Below, one piece after another: positions 19,501-58,876 of a stretch of 64,000 bases of DNA (position 1 is its first letter; every line of letters starts with the position of its first letter). The notes beneath the pieces were generated by a model. That model was not told the origin of the DNA, did no database searches, and worked only from the letters and a program-made list of their open reading frames with translations. Position numbers and translations under genes: made by a program. The DNA is from Calditrichota bacterium (GTDB lineage: Bacteria; Calditrichota; Calditrichia; RBG-13-44-9; J042): the NCBI GenBank assembly GCA_013150955.1, contig JAADJD010000017.1, forward strand, positions 1-64,000. The letters are read 5' to 3'.

Positions 19501-19522
19501 GGAGATCGTTTAACCCCATTTA

Positions 19523-27670: not shown

Positions 27671-28900
27671 ATGGAATTTTTAAATTTTCAAAAAGGAGAG
27701 CCCACTTCGCTGGCGCAGCAAATCTTTTTAGCAGTGATTATTCTGCTTTTGATTGCATTGATTTCCTTCCTTCACTATTCCACCCCAACCAACAAGTGGC
27801 AATTTCATATCATTTACATGCAAAGCTATTTCATCCCCATTTTGATTGGAGCGCTTCAGTTCGGGGTGAAAGGGGGGCTGGGATCGGCCATTGTCATCAG
27901 CCTGATCTATTTTCCTCACATCATGCTCCAGTGGGGCGGTATTAACGAAAACAATCTATTGCGGTTTATCCAGATTGTTTTGTTCAATGTGATTGGATAT
28001 TTTACGGGGCTCAAGGCCGAGCGGGAGGCCGAGGAAAAGCGGCGGTTCCAGGAAGTGGCGCTGCAGTTGCAACAATCCTTCCGGAAGATTCAGGAACAGG
28101 CCACCAAACTGGCCGAACTGGAAGAGCAGTTGCGTATTACCGATCGCCTGGCCATTGTGGGGGAGCTTTCGGCCAGCCTGGCGCATGAAGTGCGCAATCC
28201 ATTGGGTGCCATTCAGGGAGCGGTTGAAATTCTCCGGGACGAAGTTCCCAAGGATCCCAACACCGAAAAATTCTTCGATATTTTATTGCAGGAAACGCGC
28301 CGGTTGAGTGATGTGGTGGAAAATTATCTGGGACTTGCCCGCAAGGACAAGCACGTCCTGAGCAAGTTTGATGTCCGTGAAGTGCTGCAAACGTCCATGG
28401 TGCTGTTTGAAAAGAGTGCCCAGAAGGCCGGTATCGATATGGAAATGGATTTGCCGGACTTTCCCGTCATTCTTTACGGCGATGCCATTCAATTGCAGCA
28501 GATCATGTTAAATTTGCTGTTGAATGCGCGGGAAGCCATGCCGCATGGCGGGAAAATCGAAATCCGTTGCCGGCTGGTGTCGGGGGCTCCAGCAGAGACA
28601 AAACCCACGCACCAGGACGAATCCGACACATCCAATGCCAGTGTCCCCTCACCGGAAAACATTCGGGAATGGGTTTGCATTAGTGTGCAGGATTCCGGTG
28701 TGGGTATTCCCCCGGAAAATCTGCATCGCATTTTCGACCCCTTTTTTACCACCAAGGCCAGGGGAACCGGACTGGGTCTGGCCATTGTGAAACGCATTGT
28801 GGAAAAAAACGGGTGGCGCATCTCGGTGGACAGTCAGCCCGGTGAAGGTACCCGTTTCGATTTGTATATTCCCAGAACGAAAAAACAGGGTGAATCATGA
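27671..28900 (+). CDS. Membrane sensor histidine kinase (NtrB/ZraS type)
   Basis: A 409-residue sensor kinase. The N-terminus has about three or four hydrophobic segments (18-36, 48-66, 70-88, 97-113), with no large periplasmic domain, so it may sense within the membrane. A coiled coil (about 115-155) follows. The HisKA box [12 protein letters not shown] has the phospho-acceptor His172. The ATPase domain has [35 protein letters not shown] and [19 protein letters not shown] proline/serine insert of about 30 residues lies inside the ATPase domain. It overlaps the regulator as ATGA. Confidence 0.92.
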
Positions 28901-30255
28901 GCAACGGCAACCGACTCCTGCTGATTGATGACGACATCAATCTGTGCAAGGTGATTGGATATCAACTGGAAAAACAGGGATTTCAGGTAAGCATTGCCCA
29001 CAGCGGAAAAGAAGGATTAAAACTGTTCGAAAGTCGCCAGTTCGACATTGTGTTAACCGACGTCCAGATGCCTGACCTCTCCGGTATCGATGTCCTTAAA
29101 AAAATCCGCGAAAAAAACGACCAGGTGATCGTTATCATCATCACGGCATATGGTAGTCTGGACAGTGCCATAAAGGCCTGCCAGCTGGGCGCAGACGATT
29201 ATTTAACCAAACCCTTCAGTCAGGAACAATTGCGGTTTGTTATTGGCAAGGCGCAGCGCCTGCGGGAACTGCAGCAGGAGAATATCCAGCTAAAGGAAGA
29301 ATTGATCGATCAACATGGGTTTAACAATCTGATCTCCCGCAGTCCCAAGATGGAAGCGGTTTTAAAAATGGCCGTTCGGGTGGCTGCCAGCGATGCCACG
29401 GTGCTCATCCTGGGCGAAAGCGGTACCGGTAAAGAGCTGCTGGCCCGGGCCATTCACTACAATTCACCCCGACGGGACAAGCCGCTGATTACCGTGAATT
29501 GCCCTTCCATCCCCGACAATTTGCTGGAAAGCGAATTGTTTGGCCATGTGAAGGGAGCCTTCACCGGTGCAATCAAAGATCGCAAAGGGAAGTTTGAAAT
29601 GGCCAACGGCGGTACCATCTTTCTGGATGAAATCGGGGATTTGAAGTTTGACCTGCAGGCCAAATTGCTTCGCGTGTTGCAGGAACAGGAATTTGAACCA
29701 GTGGGCAGCTCCGAGAAAATCCATGTGGATGTGCGCATCATTGCCGCCACCAATAAGGATCTGGAGCAGCTGGTCAGGGAAGGGCGGTTTCGGGAGGATC
29801 TGTACTATCGGTTAAGCGTTTTTCCCATTACCATTCCGCCATTGCGGGAGCGTAAGGAAGAAATTCCGGTGCTTTTCGAACATTTCCTTAAAAAGCACGG
29901 GCAGGGACAGACATTTCGGGTGGAACCAGAAGTGCTGGATACCCTGATGCGTTACCACTGGCCGGGAAATGTGCGCGAGCTGGAGAATGTGGCCGAACGG
30001 GCGGTGATTCTGGCACAGGATAATCGCATTACCATGGATTGCTTGCCGCCATCTTTGACCAGGCAGGAAAAAACAACAACCCTTTCGGGGGATGCCCTTT
30101 TGCAGGAGGAGGATCTGTCCCTGGAAAACATCGAGCGCAAGGTGATTGAGGAGGCCCTGCGTCGGGCTGGAGGCAACCGCTCCAAGGCAGCCCGGTTGTT
30201 AAACATTCCCCGCCACGTACTCCTGTACCGATTGAAGAAACTGGGGATGGAATAA
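28897..30255 (+). CDS. Sigma-54-dependent response regulator (NtrC/ZraR type)
   Basis: A 452-residue activator. The receiver domain has acidic D11-D13, the phospho-acceptor Asp55 (VLTDVQMPD) and the conserved lysine in LTKPF. The AAA+ domain has GESGTGKELLA (Walker A), GAFTGA (sigma-54 contact) and FLDEIGDL (Walker B). The C-terminal Fis-type helix-turn-helix includes GGNRSKAARLLNIPRHVLLYRLKKLG. It forms a cognate pair with the overlapping kinase. I found no convincing -24/-12 promoter in the window, so the target is unknown. Confidence 0.94.
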   Translation: MSNGNRLLLIDDDINLCKVIGYQLEKQGFQVSIAHSGKEGLKLFESRQFDIVLTDVQMPDLSGIDVLKKIREKNDQVIVIIITAYGSLDSAIKACQLGADDYLTKPFSQEQLRFVIGKAQRLRELQQENIQLKEELIDQHGFNNLISRSPKMEAVLKMAVRVAASDATVLILGESGTGKELLARAIHYNSPRRDKPLITVNCPSIPDNLLESELFGHVKGAFTGAIKDRKGKFEMANGGTIFLDEIGDLKFDLQAKLLRVLQEQEFEPVGSSEKIHVDVRIIAATNKDLEQLVREGRFREDLYYRLSVFPITIPPLRERKEEIPVLFEHFLKKHGQGQTFRVEPEVLDTLMRYHWPGNVRELENVAERAVILAQDNRITMDCLPPSLTRQEKTTTLSGDALLQEEDLSLENIERKVIEEALRRAGGNRSKAARLLNIPRHVLLYRLKKLGME

Positions 30256-34401: not shown

Positions 34402-34570
34402 TTATCCCGGGGTTTTATCGGAAGGTTCGGTTTTTGCATCCCATAATAATCCCCTGAAATCCTTCATAACCCCAACATATTCATCGTTTTAGGTGGGGCT
34501 GACCCGTCCCCACCCAATTTATGGCACGGCAGTTGATTAAAAAGCGGCCTAAAAGATTCAGGAGGAATAC

Positions 34571-34984
34571 GTGAGTCACAGGAAAGTCATGGTACGGATT
34601 CTGGGATGGGTGCTGGTAGCCCTGGGGGTATTTGGAGGCGTTTTGTTTTTCCCCGTTCAACTGGGAGATGATTACACCTGCCTGTATCATCGTATGGTCT
34701 ACGAGCATCATCCCGGTACCCATCATTATCAGACAGGGAAGACCACCGTGCCGGCCCTGGGGCCGTCTCAGCAGGACACCCCGGCCGAACATCAAATGGC
34801 AACCGAGGTTCAGATGGACCAGCATTCTGAACCCTTAAAATTTTATTTGCGAAAATTCGCCCCCTTCTGGTGGGCCAGTTTATTTATCCTTTTTGTCGGT
34901 TACATCGTTTTTACCCGTGGAATCGGGAATCGAAAACGCCGGAACCGCACACCCAGGCAACCTGGACAAACAGCTAAAATATAG
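34571..34984 (+). CDS. Small His-rich membrane protein, first gene of the cus-type operon
   Basis: A 137-residue protein with two hydrophobic segments (about 10-28 and 100-117). The loop between them, about 70 residues, is rich in His and Met (YEHHPGTHHYQ, EHQMATEVQMDQH) and probably faces the periplasm, where it could bind Cu or Ag. The C-terminus is strongly basic (NRKRRNRTPRQ) and cytoplasmic. The start is GTG at 34571 with GGAGGAA upstream. No named family is recognised. The operon position (17 bp before the TolC-like gene) suggests a metal-handling role. Confidence 0.72.
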   Translation: MSHRKVMVRILGWVLVALGVFGGVLFFPVQLGDDYTCLYHRMVYEHHPGTHHYQTGKTTVPALGPSQQDTPAEHQMATEVQMDQHSEPLKFYLRKFAPFWWASLFILFVGYIVFTRGIGNRKRRNRTPRQPGQTAKI

Positions 34985-35001: not shown

Positions 35002-36276
35002 ATGAAAAATGTATATTTGAGTTTCTTCTTCTTGCTCATGCTCACCATGACGGTTCTTTCTCAAAGTTCGGCCGACACTTTGCGGCTTTCCGATTTGTTG
35101 AAAGAGCTTCAGGAAGAAAACCCGAAAGTCAAAGCCCTGCTGCATCAATGGAAGGCGCAGGAAGCCGCCATTGCTCCGGCGGGGGCTTTACCGGATCCAC
35201 AAATAGGGATAAACTTTTTAAACCTCCCGGTCAATAGTTTTGCATTTGATCAGGAAGCGATGACCGGGAAGCAAATCTCTTTCATGCAATATTTTCCCTT
35301 TCCCGGCAAACTGGGACTCAAAGAAAATATTGCGCGTGATGATGCCCGCATCGCCCACGAACGCTATCAGGAAGGCCTGAATCAGCTGCGCATGCTGGTG
35401 AAGCAAACCTATTACGACATCTATTACATCGATAAGGCCATCGAAATTACGAAAAAGAACGCGGACATTTTAATCCAGTTCATCAAGATTGCAGAAACCA
35501 AGTATACGGTTGGCCGGGGATTGCAGCAGGACGTGTTGCGGGCGCAGGTGGAACATTCCCGCATGATGGATAAAATCATTGCGCTGGAAAACCGACGGGA
35601 TGTTCTGGTAGCCCGCCTGAATTATCTGTTAAGCCGTCCACCCGCCAGTCCGGTGCAGCATACCGCCCGTCTGAAGGAACTGCCGTTTCCCATGAAATTA
35701 GAGGATCTGCGCGAACTGGCCGTGGCCAATCGCCCTTTGTTGAAGGCCTGGCAATTTCAGGTGGAAAAACAACAGAAAGCGGTACGACTGGCTAAAAAAG
35801 AATACCTGCCCGATTTTAAACTGGCCATTGCTTATACCCAGCGGGATGCCCTGCGAACGGGCGGTAAGGGGGTGGACTTCATCTCCGGACTCTTCACCAT
35901 TAAGGTGCCCCTCTATTTCTGGAAAAAGCAACGAAAAATTGTGGAACAACGCCAGTACCAGCAAATCTCGGCGCAACAGGAGTATGAGAATTTACGCAAC
36001 CAGATCCTTTCGGAAGTGGAAAGTACCTGGTCCAGCCTGGAAAAATCCTGGCAGCTGATTGATCTTTATCGAACCGGGATCATTCCCCAGGCCACGCAGT
36101 CCTTAAACTCGGCAATTGCCGGCTATCAAACGGATAAAGTGGACTTTCTGACGTTGTTAAACAATCAGATTACACTCTACAATTACGAGATGGATTACCA
36201 TCGCATTTTGAGTGAGTATTACAAGAGTATTGCCCGGATGGAATTTGTGATTGGGCAGGATATTTTGAATTACTAA
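35002..36276 (+). CDS. cusC: TolC/CusC-like outer-membrane efflux protein
   Basis: Predicted outer-membrane channel of a tripartite metal efflux pump, 424 residues: signal peptide (1-25), then two long helical repeats of the outer-membrane efflux family. Features include LLKELQEENPKVKALLHQWKAQ, PDPQIGINFLNLP and the second-repeat NRPLLKAWQFQVEKQQKAVRLAKKEYLPDF (in parts). It is probably not a lipoprotein. GAGGAGG precedes the start. With the next two genes it forms a CusCBA-type system. Confidence 0.92.
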   Translation: MKNVYLSFFFLLMLTMTVLSQSSADTLRLSDLLKELQEENPKVKALLHQWKAQEAAIAPAGALPDPQIGINFLNLPVNSFAFDQEAMTGKQISFMQYFPFPGKLGLKENIARDDARIAHERYQEGLNQLRMLVKQTYYDIYYIDKAIEITKKNADILIQFIKIAETKYTVGRGLQQDVLRAQVEHSRMMDKIIALENRRDVLVARLNYLLSRPPASPVQHTARLKELPFPMKLEDLRELAVANRPLLKAWQFQVEKQQKAVRLAKKEYLPDFKLAIAYTQRDALRTGGKGVDFISGLFTIKVPLYFWKKQRKIVEQRQYQQISAQQEYENLRNQILSEVESTWSSLEKSWQLIDLYRTGIIPQATQSLNSAIAGYQTDKVDFLTLLNNQITLYNYEMDYHRILSEYYKSIARMEFVIGQDILNY

Positions 36277-36317: not shown

Positions 36318-37853
36318 ATGAAAAATCGACGCACTATTATTGGGATTGTGATTGCCAGCCTCATCGTTCTGGTGGCGGTAGGTGGGTATTTCATGTTTTC
36401 CGATTCAGGAGCGGGGACGGAAACGGAGCAGCAGGCGGATGGTCAGTTGTGGACCTGCGGCATGCACCCGGAGGTGATTCTGGACAAACCCGGAAATTGC
36501 CCCATTTGTGGTATGAAGCTGGTACCGGTAAAAGGTACGGGCGCGGTTGAAGAAGACATGGGCGACATGCAGCATGAGGACATGGCTGCCGATGCCCAGA
36601 AAGAAAAGAAACCCAAAAAAGAACGTAAGATCCTTTACTGGCGGGCTCCCATGGATCCCACCGAAATTTATGATCGACCCGGAAAATCTAAAATGGGAAT
36701 GGACCTGATCCCCGTTTATGAAGACGAGGCCGAATTGGGCGCCGGAGGAACGGTTCGCATTGATCCGGTTACCGTTCAGAATATGGGGATTCGAATGGCC
36801 CGCGTGGAAAAGCGGGATTTTCACAAAGTGATTCGCACCGTGGGGTACATCGAATACAATGAGAAAACGCTGTACACAGTATCTCCAAAGATTTCCGGCT
36901 GGATTGAGCGGTTATATGTGGATTTTACCGGCCAGATGGTTTATCCCGGTCAGCCATTGCTGGAAATTTATTCTCCGGAACTGGTGACTACTCAGGAAGA
37001 ATATTTGCTGGCATTGAACAATCTAAAACTGGTAAATAAAACCTCTTTTCAATCGATCAGGGACGGGGCGGAGTCCCTCTTAAAAGCTTCCCTGCAGCGC
37101 CTGAAATACTGGGATATTCCCGATTCGGAAATTCGGCGACTGGAAGAAACGGGCGAGGTTCGGAAGACTCTCCAGTTGCAGGCCCCGGCACGGGGGGTGG
37201 TCATTCACAAAAATGCAGTGGAAGGCTCCTACGTGAAGGAGGGACAGCCGCTGTATCAGATCGCGGACCTGTCCACCGTCTGGGTATACGCCACGGTGTA
37301 CGATCACGAGTTGCCCTGGATTGAACTGGGACAGGAAGCCAGCATGGAACTGTCCTATTTGCCGGGAAAAACCTTTAAAGGACGTATCATCTATATTTAT
37401 CCCTATCTGGATAAGAAAGCCCGTGACGTAAAAATCCGCATGGAATTCGAGAATCCCGATCTGGAGCTGCGTCCCGGAATGTATGCCAATGTGATGATCA
37501 AGGGCAAAACCATTCCCGATGCCCTGGTGATTCCTTCGGAGGCGGTCATTCGCTCTGGGGTACGGAACATCGTATTTGTGGTGCGCGAACCGGGCAAGTT
37601 TGAACCCCGTCAGGTGAAGATCGGGGAAGAAGGGGAAGATGGCCTGCTGCGGATCCTCTCGGGACTGCTGCCGGGCGAAAAAATTGTGGTGTCCGCGCAG
37701 TTCATGCTGGATAGTGAAAGCCGATTACAGGAAGCCATTCAGAAATTGCTGAAAGAACGCATGAAAAAACAGCAATCGAAAGGTGCAGAATCGCGCCCGG
37801 ATGAGATGGAAGGAATGGATCATTCGAAACCCATGAATGAGCATGCGCACTAA
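36318..37853 (+). CDS. cusB: CusB-like periplasmic adaptor with heavy-metal-binding domains
   Basis: Membrane fusion protein, 511 residues, linking the RND pump to the outer-membrane channel. An N-terminal anchor (6-28) is followed by a heavy-metal-binding domain TCGMHPEV..GNCPICGMKLVPV with both cysteine motifs (about 46-72). A second degenerate copy lacks cysteines (YWRAPMDP, KMGMDLIPVYED, about 105-137). Then come the adaptor lipoyl/barrel domains (GWIERLYVDFTGQMVYPGQPLLEIYSPEL). The C-terminus ends in a Met/His tail (MEGMDHSKPMNEHAH). The domains suggest Cu(I)/Ag(I) loading of CusA. Confidence 0.93.
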   Translation: MKNRRTIIGIVIASLIVLVAVGGYFMFSDSGAGTETEQQADGQLWTCGMHPEVILDKPGNCPICGMKLVPVKGTGAVEEDMGDMQHEDMAADAQKEKKPKKERKILYWRAPMDPTEIYDRPGKSKMGMDLIPVYEDEAELGAGGTVRIDPVTVQNMGIRMARVEKRDFHKVIRTVGYIEYNEKTLYTVSPKISGWIERLYVDFTGQMVYPGQPLLEIYSPELVTTQEEYLLALNNLKLVNKTSFQSIRDGAESLLKASLQRLKYWDIPDSEIRRLEETGEVRKTLQLQAPARGVVIHKNAVEGSYVKEGQPLYQIADLSTVWVYATVYDHELPWIELGQEASMELSYLPGKTFKGRIIYIYPYLDKKARDVKIRMEFENPDLELRPGMYANVMIKGKTIPDALVIPSEAVIRSGVRNIVFVVREPGKFEPRQVKIGEEGEDGLLRILSGLLPGEKIVVSAQFMLDSESRLQEAIQKLLKERMKKQQSKGAESRPDEMEGMDHSKPMNEHAH

Positions 37854-37901: not shown

Positions 37902-40900
37902 ATGTTAGAGAAGATCATAGAAGCGTCGGTAAACAATCGGTTCCTGGTGATCCTGTTTACCATTATCATTGCGCTGGGTGGCATTTACACCATGTTACAG
38001 ACACCCGTGGATGCCATCCCGGATTTAAGTGATGTTCAGGTGATTATTTTCACCGAATATCCTGGTCAGGCCCCCCAGGTGGTGGAGGACCAGGTGACCT
38101 ATCCCCTGACCAGCGCCATGCTGGCGGTACCATACGCCAAAGTGGTGCGGGGGTATTCCTTTTTTGGATTGTCCTTTGTGTACATCATTTTTGAAGATGG
38201 CACCGACCTTTACTGGGCCCGAAGCCGGGTTCTGGAATATTTGAATTACGTTTCCAAGAACTTACCACCGGGAGTCACCCCGTCCCTGGGCCCCGATGCC
38301 ACCGGTGTGGGATGGGTGTTTGAATACGTGCTGGATGGTGGTGATAAATACGATCTGCAGCAACTGCGCTCCATCCAGGACTGGTACCTGCGTTACGAGC
38401 TGATGAGCGTTCCCGGTGTGGCCGAAGTGGCCAGCATCGGCGGGTACGTAAAGCAATATCAAGTTGAGGTGGATCCCAACAAACTGCTGGCATACAACAT
38501 CCCCCTAAGCAAGGTCAAAATGGCCATCAAGCGCAGCAACAACGACGTGGGTGGCCGATTAATCGAAATGGGCGAAACCGAATTCATGGTTCGCGGACTG
38601 GGGTACATTCAATCCATCGAAGATGTGGAGAATATCCCGGTGGGTGTGGATGAGAACGGTACGCCCATCTTGATTAAAAATATTGCCAACGTTCACATTG
38701 GACCGGAATTGCGCCGGGGTCTGGCCGACCTGAATGGTGAAGGCGAAGTGGTTGGTGGCATAGTGGTGATGCGCTGGGGCGAAAACGCCCTCAAAACCAT
38801 TCATGCGGTTAAGGAAAAGCTGAAAGAGCTGGAAAAAGGGTTACCTGAAGGGGTCAAGATCATTCCGGTATACGACCGTTCCGGCCTGATTGAACGCGCC
38901 ATCGACAATTTAAAAGAGAAGCTAATCGAAGAAAGTCTGGTGGTTGCCCTGGTCACCATCATCTTTCTGCTGCATTTCCGAAGTTCACTGGTGGCCATTT
39001 TTACCCTCCCCATGGGAATCCTGATGGCCTTCCTGGTCATGTATTACCAGGGGATTAACGCCAACATCATGTCACTGGGAGGAATTGCGATCGCCATCGG
39101 CGCCATGGTCGATGCGGCCATCGTGATGATAGAGAATGCCCATAAACACATCGAACGGTACGGTGGTAAAAAGGACCACTGGCAATTGATCATCGATTCT
39201 TCCAAGGAAGTGGGACCGGCGCTGTTCTACTCGCTATTGATCATTACCCTGTCGTTTTTACCGGTGTTTGCTCTGCAGGCGCAGGAAGGTCGACTGTTTA
39301 AGCCGCTGGCGTACACCAAAACTTACGCCATGGCAGCCGCTGCGCTGCTGTCCATCACCATCGTACCGGTGCTGATGGGATACTTCATCCGCGGCAAGAT
39401 TATGCCGGAAGAAAAGAATCCCATCAATCGTTTCCTGATCCGGGTTTACCGGCCCATTATTCACCTGGTTTTGCGATTTAAGTGGACCACCATCATCGTT
39501 GCCATCGTCATTCTGCTGATTTCGATCTGGCCGGTGGAACACATCGGATCCGAATTCATGCCCCCATTGAACGAGGGCGACCTGCTGTACATGCCCACCA
39601 CGGATCCGGGCATCAGCATCACGAAGGCCAAGGAAATTTTACAACAGACGGACAAGATCATTAAAAGTTTTCCTGAGGTGGAAAGTGTGTTCGGAAAGAT
39701 TGGTCGCGCGGAAACGGCCACCGACCCGGCACCCCTTTCCATGATCGAAACCACAATCATGCTAAAGCCGAAGGAAGAATGGCGGCCGGGCATGACCATG
39801 GACAAGCTGGTCGAGGAACTGGATAAGGCCATTCAGTTTCCGGGACTGACCAATGCCTGGACCATGCCCATTAAAACCCGAATCGACATGCTTTCCACCG
39901 GTATTAAAACCCCTATTGGAATCAAGTTGATGGGGCCGGATCTGGAGGTGCTATCGGATCTGGGTCGGCGCATCGAAACGGTTATCCGGGAAGTTCCGGG
40001 GACGTTGAGTGTCTTTGCCGATAAGACCGTGGGTGGGAATTATCTGGACTTCAAGATCAAGCGAGAGGAGGCCGCCCGTTACGGCCTGACGGTAGGCGAC
40101 GTGCAGGATATTATCACCTCGGCCATTGGTGGCATGAACGTCACCTATACGGTGGAGGGGCTGGAACGTTATCCCGTAAACGTGCGCTATGCACGGGAAT
40201 TGCGGGACAATATCGAAGCGCTGAAGCGGGTGTTGATTCCCACGCCCACGGGCGCTCAAATTCCCCTGCACTACGTGGCCGACCTCGAAATCAAGAAAGG
40301 TCCACCGGTGATCAAGAGCGAAAACGCCCGTAAAACCGCCTGGCTGTACGTGGACATTCGGGACATTGACGTGGGAACCTACGTGAAGAATGCCAAAAAG
40401 GCAGTTGAGGAAAAAGTGGACTTTCCCGAAGGCTACAGTATCGTCTGGAGTGGCCAGTATGAATATATGGAACGTGCCCAGCAGCGACTGCGCCTGGTCA
40501 TTCCCATTACCCTGGTGATTATCTTCCTTCTGTTGTATTTCAACTTCAAAAACATTCAGGAAAGCCTGATCGTGATGCTTTCGCTACCGTTTTCGCTGGT
40601 CGGTGGTATCTGGTTCATGTACATACTGGATTACAACTTTAGCGTGGCTGTGGGGGTGGGCTTTATTGCCCTTGCAGGGGTAGCCGCCGAAACGGGTGTG
40701 GTCATGCTCATTTACCTGGATCATGCCTACAAGCACCGAAAGTTGCACGGAAAATTGCGATCGCTGAAAGACCTGTACGATGCCATCATCGAAGGGGCTG
40801 TGGAGCGTGTGCGTCCCAAGATGATGACCGTAACCGCCATCATGGCCGGTCTGTTGCCCATCCTGTGGGGAACGGGTACCGGTTCTCAGGTAATGAAGCG

Positions 40901-41063
40901 CATTGCGGCACCCATGGTGGGCGGTATGGTGACTTCGACCATTCTCACCCTGGTGGTTATCCCGGCCATTTACTATCTGTGGAAGAGTCGGGAAGTGAAA
41001 CGCATCATGGCGGAATTGCAGGAAAACAATGACGACAGCAGTGAAGCGAAAGAAGAGAAATAA
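37902..41063 (+). CDS. cusA: CusA-like heavy-metal RND transporter
   Basis: Inner-membrane proton-driven heavy-metal efflux pump of 1053 residues, full length, with twelve predicted membrane helices. Motifs typical of the heavy-metal branch: GAMVDAAIVMIENAHK in TM4, ESVFGKIGRAETATDPAPLSMIETT, and the Met-rich WTMPIKTRIDMLSTGIKTP of the porter domain (written in parts). The Met residues and this clade match monovalent Cu/Ag pumps rather than CzcA zinc pumps, but specificity is an inference. It is the third structural gene of the cusCBA set. Confidence 0.95.
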   Translation: MLEKIIEASVNNRFLVILFTIIIALGGIYTMLQTPVDAIPDLSDVQVIIFTEYPGQAPQVVEDQVTYPLTSAMLAVPYAKVVRGYSFFGLSFVYIIFEDGTDLYWARSRVLEYLNYVSKNLPPGVTPSLGPDATGVGWVFEYVLDGGDKYDLQQLRSIQDWYLRYELMSVPGVAEVASIGGYVKQYQVEVDPNKLLAYNIPLSKVKMAIKRSNNDVGGRLIEMGETEFMVRGLGYIQSIEDVENIPVGVDENGTPILIKNIANVHIGPELRRGLADLNGEGEVVGGIVVMRWGENALKTIHAVKEKLKELEKGLPEGVKIIPVYDRSGLIERAIDNLKEKLIEESLVVALVTIIFLLHFRSSLVAIFTLPMGILMAFLVMYYQGINANIMSLGGIAIAIGAMVDAAIVMIENAHKHIERYGGKKDHWQLIIDSSKEVGPALFYSLLIITLSFLPVFALQAQEGRLFKPLAYTKTYAMAAAALLSITIVPVLMGYFIRGKIMPEEKNPINRFLIRVYRPIIHLVLRFKWTTIIVAIVILLISIWPVEHIGSEFMPPLNEGDLLYMPTTDPGISITKAKEILQQTDKIIKSFPEVESVFGKIGRAETATDPAPLSMIETTIMLKPKEEWRPGMTMDKLVEELDKAIQFPGLTNAWTMPIKTRIDMLSTGIKTPIGIKLMGPDLEVLSDLGRRIETVIREVPGTLSVFADKTVGGNYLDFKIKREEAARYGLTVGDVQDIITSAIGGMNVTYTVEGLERYPVNVRYARELRDNIEALKRVLIPTPTGAQIPLHYVADLEIKKGPPVIKSENARKTAWLYVDIRDIDVGTYVKNAKKAVEEKVDFPEGYSIVWSGQYEYMERAQQRLRLVIPITLVIIFLLLYFNFKNIQESLIVMLSLPFSLVGGIWFMYILDYNFSVAVGVGFIALAGVAAETGVVMLIYLDHAYKHRKLHGKLRSLKDLYDAIIEGAVERVRPKMMTVTAIMAGLLPILWGTGTGSQVMKRIAAPMVGGMVTSTILTLVVIPAIYYLWKSREVKRIMAELQENNDDSSEAKEEK

Positions 41064-41123: not shown

Positions 41124-41933
41124 ATGATTCCCATACTCTTTAAAATCGGGCCCCTTGAGATCGGCAGTTATGGGGTAATGATGGCTATGGCGTTTCTCAT
41201 AACTGCCCTGGTGCTGGCCAGAGAGCTGCGCCTGCGCGACATGCCCGCTGAATGGGCATACGAGCTGGTGCTGTGGGCGGCACTGGGTGGCATCATAGGG
41301 GCCCGATTGTATTTCATACTGGAGCATTTTCCCGAATTTCTGGCCGATCCCCTGGGCATGATCTTCAGCCGGGGTGGACTCACCTGGTACGGAGGGTTTT
41401 TCCTGGGGAGTCTGACCGTCCTGTGGAAAATTTCCCGACTGCCGGTTTCCACCCTGGAGCTGGCCGATATCATTGCCCCGTTGATTTTATTAGGGTATGC
41501 GATCGGGCGCATTGGCTGTCTGCTTTCCGGGGATGGCGATTATGGGGTTCCCACAGACGTGCCCTGGGCCATGGCCTTTCCCAACGGTCTGGTTCCCACA
41601 GATGTGCCCGTGCATCCCACGCCGTTGTACGAAACCCTGCTCTCGGGATTGTTTTTCCTGATGCTGTGGCGATTTCGGCGGATTGCCACCCGGGGCTGGA
41701 TGGTCAGTGGTCTGCTCATTTTCTACGGTCTGGAACGGTTCATTGTGGAATTCTGGCGTCGGACACCGGCGGTTTTCGGCTGGATGACCATGGCGCAGAT
41801 CATTAGCATTGGCCTGATTGTAACGGGTACGGCTTTCGGCGTGTACACCTGGAAGTTAGCTGCACGGCGACGAAAAGAAGAGTTGCAACAATTGGTTCAT
41901 AAAACAACGGTGAAAGTGCATTCAGCCAGTTAA
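41124..41933 (+). CDS. Atypical Lgt-like (prolipoprotein diacylglyceryl transferase family) membrane protein
   Basis: A 269-residue polytopic membrane protein of the Lgt family with about seven helices. The conserved C-terminal LERFIVEFWRR is present. However, the catalytic-region motifs differ from housekeeping Lgt: GGLTWYGGFFLG has Tyr where the usual motif has His, and GRIGCLLSGDGDYG replaces the usual GRxGNFxNxE. HPTPLYE is kept. It lies between cusA and the PII-like gene with short gaps, so it belongs to the metal operon. It may modify an operon lipoprotein or have diverged in function. Confidence 0.8.
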   Translation: MIPILFKIGPLEIGSYGVMMAMAFLITALVLARELRLRDMPAEWAYELVLWAALGGIIGARLYFILEHFPEFLADPLGMIFSRGGLTWYGGFFLGSLTVLWKISRLPVSTLELADIIAPLILLGYAIGRIGCLLSGDGDYGVPTDVPWAMAFPNGLVPTDVPVHPTPLYETLLSGLFFLMLWRFRRIATRGWMVSGLLIFYGLERFIVEFWRRTPAVFGWMTMAQIISIGLIVTGTAFGVYTWKLAARRRKEELQQLVHKTTVKVHSAS

Positions 41934-42292: not shown

Positions 42293-42360
42293 TGCGAACG
42301 GCGGATTTCCACTAAGGAAAGCGCGGTTCCACACAACCCATCAAAACAAAGGAGGCCGTT

Positions 42361-42858
42361 ATGAAACGGTGGATGCAGTGGATAGGAATTGGCAGTTTGT
42401 TGGCATTGGCGCTGTACGTTTTCCCGGGTTCAACGACTGCCCAGCAACACATGGGCGGGATGCAACATATGCAGCATCAACAGGGCCAGGGAATGATGAA
42501 TATGCAGAATATGATGCAGCACATGCAGCAGATGATGGCCCGCATGCAGGGTATGATGCAGGGAAGCCAGCATATGCAACACATGCAGGGTCAATCCGGC
42601 ATGATGCATGGTCAGGGCAACAACCACATGGCGCAGATGATGCAGCACATGAACACCATGGGCCAGACCATGCAGGAAATGATGCAACAGATGAACGCCA
42701 TGATGCAGAATGCGGAAATGATGAACAATCCGCAGATGAAGGAGCACATGGAGCAAATGCAAAAGCATATGCAGGAAATGATGCAGGCCATGGAAGGGAT
42801 GATTCAGAACATGGAGCAGATGCATCAGAGCGGTGGCACGGAAAAGGGTAAAAAGTAG
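42361..42858 (+). CDS. Met/His/Gln-rich periplasmic protein, putative copper sponge
   Basis: A 165-residue exported protein: signal peptide (about 1-27, ending TTAQQ), then an almost pure low-complexity body of Met, Gln, His, Asn and Gly. I count 43 Met in 165 residues, many as MM, HM or QM pairs, with His interspersed. This is the thioether/imidazole chemistry expected for Cu(I)/Ag(I) binding. The second half also has Glu and Lys and may be helical. A strong AAAGGAGG precedes the ATG. I know of no exact family. It sits in the middle of the cus-type operon. Overlapping frames on both strands are artefacts of the repeats. Confidence 0.82.
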   Translation: MKRWMQWIGIGSLLALALYVFPGSTTAQQHMGGMQHMQHQQGQGMMNMQNMMQHMQQMMARMQGMMQGSQHMQHMQGQSGMMHGQGNNHMAQMMQHMNTMGQTMQEMMQQMNAMMQNAEMMNNPQMKEHMEQMQKHMQEMMQAMEGMIQNMEQMHQSGGTEKGKK

Positions 42859-42944: not shown

Positions 42945-43367
42945 ATGAAAACGGTGATTCCTGTTCTGATTGTTTTACTGGCTATTGCGAGCTGGATTCC
43001 GATGGCGGACACAACGAGTGATGTTCGAGCCCAGTCCAGCAAATGGGTGGCGCCCAGCTGGGCAGATACACTGAGCAATCCCTATAAAAACGATGTGAAA
43101 GCCACCGAAGCAGGAAAGACCATTTTTAATCAGCTGTGCGCCATTTGCCATGGCAACTCCGGTAAAGGCGATGGCGTGGCCGGCATGGCACTCAATCCCC
43201 GACCGGCCAATTTGACTTCCGATGCGGTGCAAAGTCAGAGTGACGGCGCCCTTTACTGGAAGATCACCACCGGGCGACCGCCCATGGCGTCGTACCGGGA
43301 ATCGCTTACGGATGAACAGCGCTGGCAGGTGGTCAACTACATCCGGCAGCTGGGTAAAAAGAAATAA
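42945..43367 (+). CDS. Monohaem class I cytochrome c
   Basis: A 140-residue exported c-type cytochrome. A signal peptide is followed by one haem site CAICHGNSGKGDG (CxxCH at about 65-69); a likely distal Met lies in GRPPMASY, and the terminal helix is DEQRWQVVNYIRQL. It presumably carries electrons in the periplasm. Its place between the Met-rich protein and the porin suggests redox handling of copper or link to a respiratory complex. Neither is shown by sequence. Confidence 0.9.
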   Translation: MKTVIPVLIVLLAIASWIPMADTTSDVRAQSSKWVAPSWADTLSNPYKNDVKATEAGKTIFNQLCAICHGNSGKGDGVAGMALNPRPANLTSDAVQSQSDGALYWKITTGRPPMASYRESLTDEQRWQVVNYIRQLGKKK

Positions 43368-43403: not shown

Positions 43404-44603
43404 ATGAAACGGAATGCTTTATGGATGGTGGTTGTTGGCTTATGGTTGGTTATGGGATTTTCGCAAAATGGATTGGCTCAGGATGTGGCATCGGTACAGC
43501 AGGAAGTGAAGAAATTGAAACCTGGATTGAGCCGCTTTTTACTCCGGGGTTATGCCCATTCGGGATTTGAGCGCTACGAGAAGGAAAACAGCTTCGTCGG
43601 CGGTAGCTTTAATCCCATTTTTCTGTGGCAACAATCCGATCGTCTATTATTTGAAGGAGAGCTGGAAGTGGCCCTGGAGCATGGCAGCACCACAATTGGA
43701 CTGGAATATGCAAACATGTCCTACATTTTAAACAAACGCATGATCATTCGAGTGGGAAAATTCTTGATTCCGTTTGGAATTTTTGCCGAGCGCCTGCATC
43801 CCCGTTGGATTAATCGCCTGCCCTCCAATCCACTGGGATTTGACCACGGGGAGCAGGTTGGCCCGGCAGCGGCGCTGGGTGCGGAGATTCGCGGTGGGGC
43901 ACCCCTGGGTGCATCCAAAATCAACTATTCGATTTATTTGATCAATGGCCCCAGCCTGAACGATGGCAGCGAAAATCCCGAAGAGGCCGGGATGCTCCAT
44001 TTTGACAATTATGAGGATAACAATACCAACAAGGCCATCGGCGGGCGCTTTGGATTCCTGCCCTTTTCCAGCTCGGCTCTGGAACTGGGTGTCTCCGCAC
44101 AGTTTGCCAAGGTGGGCAACGAAAATACCATTTATCAGGACGTGGGTGCCCGCTTGTTTGCCCTGGATTTATCCCTGGTCAAAACCATTCCCTCGTTAAA
44201 GGGCATTGTGGATGTTAAGGCACAGTACAGCATGACTCAGGTGGATGATGCCCGGTATGTCGATCCCGAAAATCCCGGGCAGACCTACACGTTTAAAAAC
44301 GAAAATGCCGCCTATTTTGTCCGCGGCACATTTAAACCCGCATTTGTGGCCAATACGTTCATTCAGAAGCTGGAATTTGCTGGCCGCTATTCCGTGCTAA
44401 CTCTGGCGGAAGGCGCAGCCTGGGGCGGGGAAAAACGCCAGTGGGCCTTCAGTTTAAATTACTGGCTGGATTGGCGCACGGTGGTCAAATTTTCCTACCA
44501 GTACACCGACGCCCCGGGTGCAGAAGAAGCAGCAGTGGAACATGAGGAAGAGGGGACACCGCTGGGTGGGGCGTTCCTGATTCACTGGTCATTTGGATTC
44601 TAA
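43404..44603 (+). CDS. Porin-like outer-membrane protein
   Basis: A 399-residue exported protein: signal peptide (about 1-25), a short coiled coil (SVQQEVKKLKPGLSRF), then beta-strand-rich sequence (FLLRGYAHSGFER, MIIRVGKFLIPFGIFAERLHPRW) ending in GGAFLIHWSFGF with a C-terminal aromatic residue. This matches OprP/OprO-like or related porins. The strand RVGKFLIPFG is a common landmark. The substrate is not readable, but the metal-operon position suggests permeation of metals or their ligands. AAGGAG precedes the ATG. Confidence 0.85.
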   Translation: MKRNALWMVVVGLWLVMGFSQNGLAQDVASVQQEVKKLKPGLSRFLLRGYAHSGFERYEKENSFVGGSFNPIFLWQQSDRLLFEGELEVALEHGSTTIGLEYANMSYILNKRMIIRVGKFLIPFGIFAERLHPRWINRLPSNPLGFDHGEQVGPAAALGAEIRGGAPLGASKINYSIYLINGPSLNDGSENPEEAGMLHFDNYEDNNTNKAIGGRFGFLPFSSSALELGVSAQFAKVGNENTIYQDVGARLFALDLSLVKTIPSLKGIVDVKAQYSMTQVDDARYVDPENPGQTYTFKNENAAYFVRGTFKPAFVANTFIQKLEFAGRYSVLTLAEGAAWGGEKRQWAFSLNYWLDWRTVVKFSYQYTDAPGAEEAAVEHEEEGTPLGGAFLIHWSFGF

Positions 44604-44633: not shown

Positions 44634-44909
44634 ATGAATAAACATAAATTGCTTGGCGGGTTGCTGATCCTGGTTGTGGTACTGGTGACCGTCTGGGTCA
44701 TTGGATGTGCATCCAACAAAACTCTGGTAACCGAAAAAAGCGGCGCCCAGCTCTGGGGCGAAAATTGTGTGCGATGCCATAACGCGCCATCCCCTCCGGC
44801 TTTTAACGACTACCAGTGGGAAACCATTGCCATTCATATGCGCGTTCGGGCATCCCTGACGGACGAGGAAGTTCAAAAAATCGTCGAATTTCTAAAAATG
44901 GCCAATTGA
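44634..44909 (+). CDS. Small monohaem cytochrome c lipoprotein
   Basis: A 91-residue protein with a hydrophobic leader (about 6-22) and lipobox VIGC, then one haem motif CVRCH (about 43-47) and the late segment IHMRVRASLTDEEVQKIVEFLK with a possible Met ligand. It is probably a membrane-anchored electron carrier. It is the second cytochrome c of the operon, very small for the class, with a 15-bp gap to the next gene. Confidence 0.86.
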   Translation: MNKHKLLGGLLILVVVLVTVWVIGCASNKTLVTEKSGAQLWGENCVRCHNAPSPPAFNDYQWETIAIHMRVRASLTDEEVQKIVEFLKMAN

Positions 44910-44924
44910 CGAATCGGATAGGTT

Positions 44925-45794
44925 ATGAAATTCCGTGGATTAAAAAATATCTTTACCATCGCTCTGATGCTCCTCCTGTGGCTCTTACCTGCTCAAATGG
45001 CAGTGGGAGCAGGGAAGTGGTCGCTATTTAGTTACCTGTCGTACTATAGTGGTCGGTATTATTTAACGGAGACCACCCGTAGCCTGTATGTTGCGGGTGG
45101 ACTCCGCTATCGCAGTGACCGCTGGAATGTGTCTTTCAGTATGCCATGGATTATTCAGAATTCCAATTTGGTACAGCAAACGGGTAACGTGTTTTATCCT
45201 ATGGGGCCCGATGGAAATGGCCGCTCACACATGGATGGCGATGCCATGGGGATGGGAGATGGCTGGCATTCCCGGCACATGAACTTTCAGGCGCCCACCT
45301 CGCACATCCTCACCGGTCTGGGGGACGCCTACGGCTACATCAGCTACCGGCTGTATGGCGGGGGATTTGCCACGTATGCGGTATTTGCTAATATTCAAAT
45401 CAAAGCACCAACGGCCAGTGTTCAGCGGGGATTTGGCACCGGGGAGTGGGATTATGGCGGCAGTTTTTCCTTTCAAAAACTTTTTTGGCGGAAATGGGGC
45501 GCCATTGTCGAACTGGGAATCCTGGACATTGGCGATCCCGATTCCATCACCTTTAAAAATCCGGTTTTTGGAAGCCTGACGCTGAACTGGTTTGTGAACC
45601 CAAAAGTAGCTCTAACGCTGTATTACCTGTGGTACACACAGATACAGGATCAGGTGGAGCCACCGCGATATGTAAATGGTGGAGTTCACTATCAGATGTC
45701 GAATACCATCACCCTGCTGGTCACAGTGGGGCGGGGGATGAGTTCCAGTAGCGCGGACTTTAACATGTTTACCAGTTTAGAAGTAACACTTTAA
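44925..45794 (+). CDS. Outer-membrane transporter-like protein with Met/His-rich loop
   Basis: A 289-residue exported protein: signal peptide (about 1-29), then alternating strands typical of a small beta-barrel (SLYVAGGLRYRSDRWNVSFSMPW, ATYAVFANIQIKAP, in parts) and a C-terminal strand FTSLEVTL. One loop is metal-ligand rich (SHMDGDAMGMGDGWHSRHMN, about 101-120). It resembles barrel proteins annotated as MetA-pathway or 'transporter' family, but the assignment is loose. The loop and operon context suggest a role in metal passage. Confidence 0.78.
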   Translation: MKFRGLKNIFTIALMLLLWLLPAQMAVGAGKWSLFSYLSYYSGRYYLTETTRSLYVAGGLRYRSDRWNVSFSMPWIIQNSNLVQQTGNVFYPMGPDGNGRSHMDGDAMGMGDGWHSRHMNFQAPTSHILTGLGDAYGYISYRLYGGGFATYAVFANIQIKAPTASVQRGFGTGEWDYGGSFSFQKLFWRKWGAIVELGILDIGDPDSITFKNPVFGSLTLNWFVNPKVALTLYYLWYTQIQDQVEPPRYVNGGVHYQMSNTITLLVTVGRGMSSSSADFNMFTSLEVTL

Positions 45795-45810: not shown

Positions 45811-46452
45811 ATGTTTGATATTACACTGTTGCATCCCAAAGTGGTGCATTTTCCCATTGCCCTGGTGTTGGTGGCGTTTGTATTCGACATTCTGGGCATG
45901 ATCAAGAAAAATGAATTTTACTATAGATTTGCCTGGATCAATCTGGTGCTGGCATTTTTTGCCGCCGTGGTGGCCATTGTTAGCGGACTGCTGGCTGCGA
46001 ACAACGTGCCGCACAATGATCTGGCCCACGAAACCATGGAAACGCACGAGAATCTGGGCTATGTGATCGGGGGAATCCTGGCGGTGCTGGTTTTCTGGCG
46101 CTTCCGTCTTAAAGGCGCCTTTCCTGAAAAAGGGAAATGGATCTACTTGCTTCTCTTTTTTGTCGGTGTGGGGACGGTGGTCATCAGCAGCGATCTGGGA
46201 GGCAAAATGGTGTACGAATTTGGCGTGGCGGTGAAGGCGGTGCCTCAGGTGGAATCGGAAGGGCATTCTCACGATGGCGATGGACATTCCCACGGCGAAA
46301 GTGCTTCCCCGTCCATGGAATCGCATGAACACGGGGAGGGCGAAGATCACCACCAGGCCGGCGCCGAAAGCAAAATGAAGGGCGAGGCCTCCCCGGAAAA
46401 GAAGCAGAAAAAGCTTCATAAACACGATGATGGATCGGTTCATGAACACTAA
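45811..46452 (+). CDS. DUF2231 membrane protein with His-rich tail
   Basis: A 213-residue protein beginning with the DUF2231 landmark LHPKVVHFPIALVLVAFVFD. About four membrane helices lie within residues 10-150. The C-terminal tail (about 150-213) is soluble and rich in His (HSHDGDGHSHGES, HEHGEGEDHHQ, HKHDDGSVHEH), likely binding metal. DUF2231 proteins have been proposed to be haem- or redox-related; no activity can be assigned. It is the last gene of the contiguous cus-type operon, before a gap of nearly 300 bp. Confidence 0.85.
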   Translation: MFDITLLHPKVVHFPIALVLVAFVFDILGMIKKNEFYYRFAWINLVLAFFAAVVAIVSGLLAANNVPHNDLAHETMETHENLGYVIGGILAVLVFWRFRLKGAFPEKGKWIYLLLFFVGVGTVVISSDLGGKMVYEFGVAVKAVPQVESEGHSHDGDGHSHGESASPSMESHEHGEGEDHHQAGAESKMKGEASPEKKQKKLHKHDDGSVHEH

Positions 46453-46745: not shown

Positions 46746-47132
46746 ATGAGTTACTATTTTGCACGTCAGTTCGACGCAGATTTTGATGAAATGATTCAGC
46801 GGGTAACCGATGCATTGAAGGAAGAAGGATTCGGCGTCCTGACGGAAATTGATGTCAAAGAAACGTTAAAGAAAAAGCTGGATGTGGATTTCCGCCGCTA
46901 TCGCATTCTGGGCGCCTGCAATCCACCGTATGCCTACAAGGCCTTACAGGCGGAAGACAAGATCGGTACCATGCTGCCCTGCAATGTGGTTGTCCAGGAA
47001 CTGGGCGATGGCAGGGTGGAGGTTGCTGCTGTCGATCCGGTGGCCTCGATGCAGGCCATCAACAATCCGGCACTGGCAGAAATTGCCAGCGAAATTCGGG
47101 CGAAGTTAAAAAAGATTGTCGATTCGTTGTAA
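46746..47132 (+). CDS. DUF302 domain protein
   Basis: A 128-residue cytoplasmic protein with the DUF302 pattern: YYFARQFDADFDEMIQRVTDALKEEGFGVLTEIDVKETL (in parts), then YRILGACNPPYAYKALQAE and LPCNVVVQE. Members are small, often found near metal and sulfur redox genes; the function is not established. Two conserved cysteines (GACNPP and MLPCNV) are notable. AAAGGAGAGG precedes the start. No signal peptide. Confidence 0.9.
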   Translation: MSYYFARQFDADFDEMIQRVTDALKEEGFGVLTEIDVKETLKKKLDVDFRRYRILGACNPPYAYKALQAEDKIGTMLPCNVVVQELGDGRVEVAAVDPVASMQAINNPALAEIASEIRAKLKKIVDSL

Positions 47133-47262: not shown

Positions 47263-47493
47263 ATGATGGGTGGCGATTGGTTTTGGGGTCACATGGGCTT
47301 TGGCTGGTTGTTCTGGCTGGTGATCATCGGGATCATCATCTGGGGCATCAGCATGATGAGTCGTTCGCGGGGAACCACCGAACCCCCGGCGAAAAAGGAA
47401 ACCCCACTGGAAATCTTGAAAAAGCGGTATGCACGGGGAGAAATTACCCGGGAAGAATATGAACAGATGAAACGCGATTTAACGGAAGATTGA
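47263..47493 (+). CDS. SHOCT-domain small membrane protein
   Basis: A 76-residue protein: an aromatic, Met-rich N-terminus with one membrane helix (FGWLFWLVIIGIIIWGISMM, about 13-32), then a short linker and a SHOCT domain (LEILKKRYARGEITREEYEQMKRDL). It is typical of tiny membrane proteins found beside copper-resistance genes. AGGGAG precedes the ATG. The 130-bp gap to the DUF302 gene shows nothing certain. Confidence 0.86.
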   Translation: MMGGDWFWGHMGFGWLFWLVIIGIIIWGISMMSRSRGTTEPPAKKETPLEILKKRYARGEITREEYEQMKRDLTED

Positions 47494-51475: not shown

Positions 51476-51700
51476 AACCCACATAATGCATTCAACCGCG
51501 AATCACGCGAATGAAACCCAAAAATATCAATTAAATCGCGAATAAACCTCAAAACAATTTTTTCATACGGATATCGTCCAATGTGTTTTATTTATTTTAT
51601 TCGTTTTAATTCGTGTAATTCGTAGGCGATTGCTTGATCTGGGATTAATTTTATTCGTGTTCATTCGTGTAATTCGTAGGCGATTGCATCATCCGGGTTT
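51476..51700 (-). repeat. Dispersed MITE-like element, inverted, with duplicated left arm
   Basis: A unit in reverse orientation (51476-51646): right arm AACCCACATAATGCATTCAAC, then GCGAATAAACCTC and the left arm ending TGATCTGGGATT. An extra left arm (51647-51700, TTCGTGTAATTCGTAGG to CCGGGTTT) follows. It fills the gap before the second PII-like gene. Confidence 0.85.
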
Positions 51701-53633: not shown

Positions 53634-53759
53634 GCATCTGACGGCCAGAAAGGCTCAAGTGTGAACAGGATTGAAAGAAACAGAACCTTTTTCCATGATG
53701 CGTAACATCTTTCGGATGCGCGTATCCAATTGAGGAACACGGCAATGAGTGGAGGAAAA

Positions 53760-56288
53760 ATGAGTGCTCATCATCATACAGATGTGGAGATCCGGGTATC
53801 GGATACCGATCCCGAAGGCGGTAAGGAGCTGACGTTACCGGTGGCCGGAATGACCTGTGCTTCCTGTGCGTTTCATGTGGAGAAAGCGTTAAAAAGCGCA
53901 CCGGGCGTTGCCGATGCACGAGTGAATCTGGCGACAGAACATGCGCGGGTGATTTTGAAGACGGATCATCCACAGATGGACAAGCTGGTGGAGGCCATCG
54001 AACAGGCTGGATATGAGGTACCCACAGAGACGCTTTCTTTTCAGGTTGGTGGAATGACCTGTGCCTCCTGTGCCCAGCATGTGGAACGGGCGTTGCGGAA
54101 ACTTCCCGGCGTACTGGAGGCCAGCGTGAACCTGGCTACCGAAACCGCACGGGTTACCTACGTTAGGGAGCTGGTGGATTGGTCGGATTTGAAACGCGCC
54201 GTCACCGAAGTGGGCTACCAGGTAGTGGAGCCGGAAACGACTGCCGGAGAGGAAGTGGATGAAACGGAACGCAAAATGCACCAGGCGCGGTTCCGCATGT
54301 GGGTGGCCTGGGGATTTACCATTCCCATCATCCTGTGGATGTTTCTGGAAATGTTTTTCGGGATTTACTGGCCCAGTAAGACCGTTTTTCATCTGGGGAT
54401 GATTGTCCTGTCCCTGCCGGTATTGTTCTGGGTGGGACGCCAGACATTTAGCAGCGGTTTTGCGGCCGTGCTGCATGGGCATGCGAACATGGACACGCTG
54501 ATCATGCTGGGAACCGGTGCGTCCCTGATCACCGGCCCGGCTTCCTTTTTCTTTCCGGTGGCCAACTACGCCGGTGTTGCGGCCATGATCATGGCCTTTC
54601 ATCTGACCGGACGTTACATCGAAGAGCGCGCAAAAGGGAAGGCTTCTCAGGCCATCCGGAAGTTACTGGAATTGGGAGCCAAAACGGCACGGGTTATTCG
54701 CAACGGCCGGGAGGTCGAAATTCCCATTGAAGAGGTTCAGGTCGGCGATATCATGGTCGTGCGCCCCGGGGAAAAAATCCCCACCGATGGGATCATCGTG
54801 GAAGGGGAGAGCGCGGTGGACGAATCCATGGCCACCGGGGAGAGCATGCCGGTGAATCGCAGACCCGGCGATGAAGTCATCGGTGCTACCATCAATCAGG
54901 AAGGACTGCTTAAAATTAAGGCCACGCGGGTGGGGAAGGATACTTTTCTATCCCAGGTCATCAAGCTGGTGGAAGAGTGCCAGGGCTCCAAGGTTCCCAT
55001 TCAGGAATTTGCCGATCGAGTGACTGGCATTTTCGTCCCGGTAGTGATCTTGATCGCCCTGTTTACCGGTGTTCTCTGGCTATTATTTCCGGAAACCATG
55101 CGTGCGATGATTGCCTTCGGTGATTTTCTCCCCTGGGTGAATCCCAATATTGGCATTGCTTCCCTGGCCATTATTTCCATGGTGGCCGTGCTGGTAATTG
55201 CCTGTCCCTGTGCACTGGGACTGGCCACCCCCACTGCCTTGATGGTGGGCAGCGGAATGGGCGCCGAAAGAGGCATTCTGTTCCGTTCCGGAGAGGCCAT
55301 CCAGTTACTCAAGGACATCCGCATTGTGATTTTTGATAAAACGGGCACCATCACCAAAGGCAAACCCGAAGTCACCGATGTGGTGGCGGTTCAGGGCAAC
55401 GAACTGAATCATGTAGTAAAAATGGCCGCCTCCGTTGAACAGGGCAGTGAACATCCACTGGGTCAGGCCATCGTAAAGTATGCACAGGGTCTTTCGTTGT
55501 CCCTGGTAAAACCGGAGAATTTCCAGAGCATTCGAGGGAAAGGTGTGGTGGCCGAATTAAATCAGCAGCGGGTAATGGTTGGCAGCCGGAAGTTGATGGA
55601 AGACTTTGGAGTGGACGTGCTCCCGGTAGAAACCGATCTGCGTCGCCTGGAAGAGGAAGCCAAAACGGCCATGATTGTCGCCGTGGATCACACCGTGATT
55701 GGCATTATTGCGGTGGCGGATACGATCAAAGAAGATTCCGCGCTGGCCATTGCCGAGCTGCATGAAATGGGCATCAAGACGGCCATGATTACAGGGGATA
55801 ATCGTCATACCGCAGAGGCCATCGCCCGCCAGGTGGGCATCGACTATGTGCTGGCAGAAGTATTGCCGGATGGTAAGGTGGAAGAAGTGCGGCGACTGCA
55901 GCAGAAATGGGGACGGGTCGCTTTTGTGGGAGATGGCATCAACGATGCGCCAGCGCTAACCCAGGCCGATGTGGGGATCGCCATCGGCACCGGAACCGAC
56001 ATTGCGATCGAGGCGAGCGATGTGACCCTGGTTCGGGGAGAACTGGTTCGTGTGGTGGAAGCCATTAAACTCAGCCGGGCCACTTTTCGGAAAATTCGCC
56101 AGAACCTGTTCTGGGCCTTCTTTTACAACGTGGCCATGATCCCCCTGGCCATGGTGGGATGGATGCATCCCGTGCTTGCCGAAATTGCCATGGCCACATC
56201 GTCCATCACGGTGGTTTCCAACGCCAATCTGCTGCGAAAGGTGGACATTCGTTCCGAGTACCTCCGGGAAAGCGAGGGCGCGGAGTAG
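53760..56288 (+). CDS. copA: Copper-translocating P1B-1 ATPase CopA
   Basis: Cu(I)/Ag(I) efflux ATPase of about 842 residues. Two N-terminal heavy-metal-associated domains each carry GMTCASC (about residues 30-36 and 96-102). The transport-site CPC is in [12 protein letters not shown] (C482, C484), the phosphorylated Asp526 is in DKTGTITKG, and [20 protein letters not shown] is the hinge. A His-rich start (MSAHHHTD) precedes the first domain. GGAGG lies 4 bp before the ATG at 53760; another in-frame ATG at 53745 is a plausible alternative start. It is the last gene of the RseC-led operon and is followed by a strong terminator. Confidence 0.95.
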
Positions 56289-58848: not shown

Positions 58849-58876
58849 ATCCCATTTAAAAATGGAGGAAGCAACA

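Follow-up and report, generated by a model that had tools for sequence, protein, structure and literature searches.

METRICH and the Surrounding Copper/Silver Island

Within the window, i.e. the whole stretch of 64,000 nucleotides that was analysed, the gene at 42361..42858 on the forward strand encodes a Met-rich exported protein, here referred to as METRICH. The gene is preceded by a strong ribosome-binding site, AAAGGAGG (42348..42356, forward strand), read off the sequence directly 5′ of the ATG, and its 165-residue product contains 43 Met and carries a signal peptide at residues 1–27. The signal peptide ends in ...STTA ahead of QQ, and cleavage is expected after A27. The sequence-only reading of this DNA had described an exported Met-rich protein composed, beyond the signal peptide, mostly of Met, Gln, His, Asn and Gly, and the description stands: these residues make up 111 of the 138 mature positions, with Met at 41 of them. 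It had also noted a gain of Glu and Lys in the second half, and indeed all 8 Glu lie at residue 106 or later and the mature Lys at residue 127 or later. Leu, Val and Phe do not occur in mature METRICH; Cys is absent from the protein and is found once in 1 of 20 homologues. Since Met averages 2.9% in the other named proteins of the window, the binomial tail for 43 Met in 165 residues against this background is near 10^-27.6.

The gene contains weak 21-bp and 42-bp DNA repeats, which match seven-codon units. METRICH is a gene under purifying selection and not a slippage artefact: the two pairs that are not saturated give dN/dS values of 0.09 and 0.11, and Met columns are conserved no less than other columns in 7 of 7 pairs. 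If cleavage occurs after A27, residues 28–30 would place Gln-Gln-His at the mature N-terminus, a possible Cu(II)-binding motif; many homologues share a Gln-His start.

The cus-type operon setting that had been proposed for the gene was confirmed, with CusC, CusB and CusA encoded directly upstream of METRICH in the same direction. All coordinates that follow refer to the forward strand. The 5′ part of the region reads: a histidine kinase (27671..28900) adjoining an NtrC-type sigma-54 activator (28897..30255; AtoC/NtrC-like, named from its sequence); a divergent secreted-protein gene; a small, apparently two-TM protein with a His/Met loop and no Pfam match (34571..34984), the first gene of the presumed operon; a CusC-type outer-membrane efflux protein (35002..36276); CusB with HMBD heavy-metal-binding domains (36318..37853); and CusA (37902..41063). 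The 3′ part continues with an Lgt-like prolipoprotein diacylglyceryl transferase (41124..41933), which, of the loci that were read, is confined to those of the window's own family, and a P-II-like signalling protein (PF00543; 41951..42292), whose gene usually stands immediately 5′ of METRICH. METRICH is followed by a cytochrome c (42945..43367), a porin-like protein (43404..44603; its Porin_O_P match is slightly below cut-off), a second small cytochrome c (44634..44909), an outer-membrane β-barrel (see below), a DUF2231 membrane protein with a His-rich tail (45811..46452), a DUF302 protein (46746..47132) and a SHOCT protein (47263..47493). Calditrichota relatives keep most of this order.

The Met triad of the window CusA, residues 564/614/663, aligns with M573/M623/M672 of E. 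coli CusA, the established Cu/Ag-binding residues of that pump, and is kept in 18 of 18 CusA-like relatives checked. Further downstream lie a CopA-type P1B ATPase with a CPC motif and two MTCASC HMA domains (53730..56288) and a CopB-type P1B ATPase with a CPH motif and a His-rich N-terminus (58862..61123), the latter with 36 His within its first 110 residues. CusF gave no match in any of the 18 METRICH-bearing Calditrichota genomes, the window's included, and is also missing from nearly all of the phylum. METRICH, in turn, is missing in 9 of the 26 Calditrichota genomes that have a close CusA, which means that the pump can do without it.

At the head of the operon is a sigma-54-type −24/−12 site, TGGCACGGCAGTTGAT (34522..34537), with a counterpart at the matching place in relatives. 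Such a site occurs with at most 2 mismatches in 10 of 10 loci holding the first gene, to be read against the roughly 9% of random 380-bp stretches that reach this score and the relatedness of the ten loci. Directly 5′ of METRICH itself, no consistent match to a sigma-54 site was found.

The island contains two P-II-like proteins (41951–42292 and 51630–52127), one of them beside CusA and METRICH, and most relatives likewise have P-II-like genes after CusA; a literature search on P-II-like proteins linked to Cus returned nothing useful. In many relatives (L011, L016, L017, L048 and others), genes for CcmF-like cytochrome c assembly, zinc-ribbon and ABC transporter proteins are located near the METRICH-barrel pair.

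Methionine Spacing, Heptad Core and Predicted Fold

The M-x-M pattern first ascribed to the protein was not confirmed: at spacing 2, mature METRICH contains a single Met pair. There are 10 pairs at spacing 1, 20 at 3, 16 at 4 and 24 at 7, and the frequent spacings of 3, 4, 7, 10 and 11, i.e. MxxM/MxxxM heptads, are the signature of a helix heptad. In the family alignment of 21 sequences, columns with a Met majority fall into three blocks, all of which follow a 3-4 heptad: 45/46, 48, 51/52, 55, 58, 65 and 66; 90, 93, 97, 100, 104, 107/108, 111 and 114/115; and 126, 130, 133, 137, 140, 141, 144 and 147. Over one 28-residue stretch of METRICH, 8 of 8 a/d positions are Met (shuffle P 0.010).

L/I/V/F account for 60% of the replacements in Met-majority columns vs. 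4% of non-Met residues elsewhere (Fisher ~1e-62, with columns and sequences not independent). Among homologues, the Met fraction and the LIVF fraction are anticorrelated (rho −0.83), and their sum remains at 26–33%. Because Met gives way mainly to Leu, Ile and Val in relatives, it also acts as a hydrophobic core.

AlphaFold2 predicts Met-cored helices at residues 36–76, 87–116 and 124–161, in a model of low confidence that extends to the packing (pLDDT 66.5, pTM 0.33), and a Foldseek search of this model against the PDB found no significant fold match. P124 (20 of 21 sequences) and K127 (18 of 21) are conserved and mark a conserved turn ahead of the last helix. The suggestion that METRICH might be a helical chain with Met faces is supported, except that it had been limited to the second half of the protein, whereas it applies to the whole mature chain. 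Taken together, the heptad Met columns, the L/I/V/F replacements and the predicted helices indicate a helical hairpin or bundle with a core made up of Met. The Met layers of such a core may be able to hold metal.

Distribution of the Family and its Outer-membrane Barrel Partner

Profile search recovered METRICH homologues in 17 of 40 Calditrichota genomes, and reading of the locus added G018, giving 18 of 40. Outside Calditrichota, single matches were found in 3 of 385 genomes searched, and in the phylum of G241, 13 of 298 genomes have a homologue. A separate scan of genome contigs yielded at least 7 METRICH loci and sets no bound on the distribution. No model in Pfam, NCBIfam or PHROG reaches its cut-off for the family. 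DUF2383, LXG, Cbp1 and the other matches from these libraries are below cut-off and were set aside as coiled-coil bias; likewise, the PDB sequences matching the family profile are mostly designed or natural coiled coils and were read as shared composition.

The partner of METRICH is an outer-membrane β-barrel of the COG4313/PF13557/FapF-like channel type, encoded in the window at 44925..45794 (forward strand). In most loci, the barrel start overlaps the METRICH stop or follows it within 6 bp, while in the window's family the two cytochrome c genes and the porin-like gene are inserted between them. All 16 Calditrichota genomes with a close barrel also have METRICH (Fisher 2e-9, the genomes not being independent). 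The barrel profile matches FapF (E 8.8e-9), and the predicted barrel model (pLDDT 74.9, pTM 0.71) retrieves FapF (E 1.7e-11) and the COG4313 channel 4rl8 (E 2.3e-9) in Foldseek. Distant relatives of the window barrel match PF13557; at E up to 10, the window barrel itself matches none of the Pfam models, PcoB/CopB included. The pair recurs in the phylum of G241, including with a Met-poor protein, and since Met-poor homologues keep the same partner, the older role of the family need not be metal binding. No barrel was detected near the homologues at L014, L015, L053, L066, L125, L128 and L134.

In an unrelated lineage, L103 (7424–8707) encodes a Met-rich exported protein with 38 Met in 186 residues, directly 5′ of a barrel gene of the same type. 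This protein can hardly be aligned with the METRICH family.

Methionine Content and Copper Genes outside Calditrichota

The Met fraction of the homologues was measured in the C-terminal 130 residues, and copper context was defined as Cus/Cop genes within 7 kb. Homologues outside Calditrichota that are in copper context (L127–L132) have 0.19–0.26 Met. Where no Cus/Cop gene lies within 7 kb, the fraction is 0.08–0.13 (L133–L137, L067) or 0.17 (L126), with two exceptions: L125, with 0.24 Met and a partial CopB-type match nearby, and L066, with 0.20 Met, which is lipoprotein-like and belongs to another lineage. G511 has both kinds, namely L128 with CopA and 0.25 Met, and L135 without it and 0.12 Met.

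Among the non-Calditrichota homologues, Met content is higher near Cus/Cop genes (one-sided Mann-Whitney P 0.0056), in a small sample with several hand-set cut-offs from which L103 (0.27 Met, no metal gene detected) and L068 (0.28, metal genes) were left out as poorly aligning or repeat-built Met-rich proteins. Because stretches are short and some contigs end early, the absence of metal genes at the loci classed as without them is not certain. The contrast weakens when every locus is counted (P 0.014), as several Calditrichota loci with no detected adjacent Cus/Cop gene are Met-rich; Met-rich homologues with no Cus/Cop gene detected in the stretch include those of L013, L019, L020, L021, L028, L066, L125 and L103. 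On the barrel tree, the Met-rich and Met-poor labels switch at least 2 times, so the Met-rich pattern is not one clade.

The L066 homologue (9531–10022) has a lipobox-like LFMFC and is divergent from a P-II gene and what is, by sequence, an ammonium-transporter-like gene. L068, from another phylum, encodes two short Met-repeat proteins (9245–9640 and 19489–19809) near DUF302, SHOCT and CopA.

Comparison with Known Systems

SilE, which carries His and Met on helix faces, binds Ag and gains helix upon binding (PMC5008109). Like SilE and PcoE, METRICH is exported, His/Met-rich and encoded beside a Cus-type pump, with its ligands at i, i+3/i+4 on helix faces. SilE is disordered, and its motifs combine His with Met (MxxHxxxxxxHxxM; PMC5008109), whereas Met fills the heptad core of METRICH, and the usual partner of METRICH, unlike that of SilE/PcoE, is a barrel gene. 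These differences are drawn from descriptions of SilE/PcoE, and no Pfam or NCBIfam model comes near its cut-off; METRICH is probably, though not certainly, outside SilE/PcoE.

CusF has a small fold of its own with a Met/His/Trp site. It shares with METRICH a small size, a periplasmic location, a place in cus operons and a likely role as metal donor or buffer; its model PF11604 is not among the best 25 of 35 Pfam matches of METRICH at E up to 10. (The CusF site is also described in PMC5008109.)

Cu efflux by PcoB depends on its Met/His-rich tail, and the genes pcoA and pcoB share a four-base overlap (PMC12509749). Both PcoB/CopB and the METRICH system couple a Met/His-rich periplasmic segment to a barrel in a copper operon, the barrel of PcoB/CopB being 12-stranded; the PcoB tail is fused, mostly His-rich and disordered, whereas METRICH is a separate helical protein from a separate gene. 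FapF combines coiled coil, plug and barrel in one protein (PMC5557850). The barrel fold of FapF and of channel 4rl8 is that of METRICH's partner, but FapF carries the periplasmic coiled coil and plug itself, while here the coiled-coil part comes as a Met-cored protein of its own in a copper-export context; no fap genes were seen. The FapF and PcoB parallels are analogies, a likeness in working and not membership.

MrpX/BcrX, a hypochlorite sink with MXKDX repeats and adjoining MsrPQ (PMC8315932), is exported and Met-rich as METRICH is, but METRICH has neither the repeat nor the linkage. Csp copper storage proteins are Cys-lined helical bundles, and METRICH has no Cys. By the tests made, METRICH is not CusF, PcoB, MrpX or Csp; most likely, it works like SilE, CusF or the PcoB tail.

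Proposed Function and Alternative Explanations

With Met at almost every core position and a place in a copper/silver-export operon, METRICH probably sequesters copper or silver on the outer side of the inner membrane. We favour, with somewhat better than even confidence, a periplasmic Met-zipper that buffers Cu(I)/Ag(I) and hands metal to CusCBA, helical and with Met at the a/d core positions. METRICH would be exported by Sec, cut after A27 and soluble in the periplasm, either as a bundle of helices or as a chain folding upon metal, in both cases around an almost purely Met core. Thioether layers stacked between neighbouring helices, together with flanking His, could bind several Cu(I)/Ag(I) ions, by which METRICH is proposed to buffer the periplasm. 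It may then pass metal to the co-encoded pump, substituting for the missing CusF, and it probably cooperates as well with its own barrel in the outer membrane, a partner kept outside copper operons. For METRICH, we infer the binding of metal, its stoichiometry, its transfer and the contact with the barrel.

The Cu(I)/Ag(I) binding put forward in the sequence-only reading is partly supported. In its favour are CusCBA with its three-Met site, the CPC and CPH ATPases, the failure to find CusF and the Met content near Cus/Cop genes. The buffer further draws on the HMBD domains of CusB, the sigma-54 site at the operon head, the Met heptads with their L/I/V/F replacements, the predicted helices, the label switches on the barrel tree and the SilE analogy. 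Against the buffer count the low confidence of the AlphaFold2 model and its lack of a PDB fold match, the swaps of Met for Leu/Ile, by which packing of the core could by itself account for many positions, the Met-rich homologues in stretches with no Cus/Cop gene detected, and the Calditrichota genomes that have a close CusA but no METRICH. The sequence-only reading had looked to conserved non-Met positions as a sign of another role; this was borne out in part, as P124 and K127 are conserved, Leu/Ile/Val are the main replacements of Met, and the barrel is retained beside Met-poor homologues.

Carried to its end, this core packing would make METRICH a purely structural helical protein, with Met there solely for its flexible hydrophobic side chain and taking no part in metal handling. 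The steady total core hydrophobicity and the Met-poor homologues fit such a protein, yet it fails to explain the near-total exclusion of L/I/V/F from the window METRICH, the operon context and the Met content near Cus/Cop genes; given the higher Met content near these genes outside Calditrichota, we regard it as very improbable. Hardly better placed is a sacrificial antioxidant, in which the Met would absorb periplasmic hypochlorite or peroxide and then be re-reduced, as with MrpX/BcrX and MsrP/MsrQ. That role is known for Met-rich exported proteins (PMC8315932), and PF00174 (MsrP-like) domains are encoded by the window genome and by 8 of the 18 METRICH-bearing genomes, but the PF00174 gene is never on METRICH's contig in any METRICH-bearing genome. 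Moreover, METRICH has no MXKDX match among NCBIfam results at E up to 1, and the window genome, 99.7% complete, yielded neither MsrA (PF01625) nor MsrB (PF01641). The lack of a linked MsrP, of the repeat and of MsrA/MsrB disfavours an antioxidant sink, as do a neighbourhood of copper export and a Met content that tracks copper genes outside Calditrichota. MsrA is also missing from G001, the genus mate of the window genome.

METRICH could also be one half of a split channel, i.e. the periplasmic coiled coil/plug or adaptor of the FapF-like barrel, with Met loading the channel with Cu/Ag and buffering secondary. We consider this unlikely as the main role, though less so than the two preceding explanations. 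It is supported by the co-occurrence of METRICH with the close barrel, the stop/start overlap or short gap in most loci, the same pair with a Met-poor protein beyond Calditrichota, the periplasmic coiled coil and helical plug of FapF (PMC5557850) and the need of PcoB efflux for its Met/His-rich tail (PMC12509749). On the other side, three genes separate METRICH from the barrel in the window, and seven homologues have no barrel detected nearby. A channel partner and a buffer are compatible, and in the best reading the buffer derives from a helical protein that earlier served as partner to an outer-membrane channel. In a bolder form, METRICH and the barrel would be the two genes of one outer-membrane module, with a periplasmic helical protein serving a FapF/COG4313-type channel; in copper operons of at least 2 phyla its Met core would make a Met zipper that collects Cu(I)/Ag(I) and feeds the metal, or itself loaded with metal, through the channel. 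This we offer as a speculative and rather unlikely idea.

Implications

A SilE-like role would be ordinary; what is new here is the Met core, the pairing with a barrel and the copper-linked Met content. If the buffer reading is true, METRICH would be a natural helical protein with a nearly all-Met hydrophobic core that serves as a soft-metal store. It would be to thioethers what the Cys-lined copper storage proteins are to Cys, and might serve as a model for design. Met-rich and Met-poor homologues that share one partner provide a natural control for the contribution of methionine. Cus-type copper/silver export would then gain a so far unnamed family of proteins as well as an outer-membrane channel of its own.
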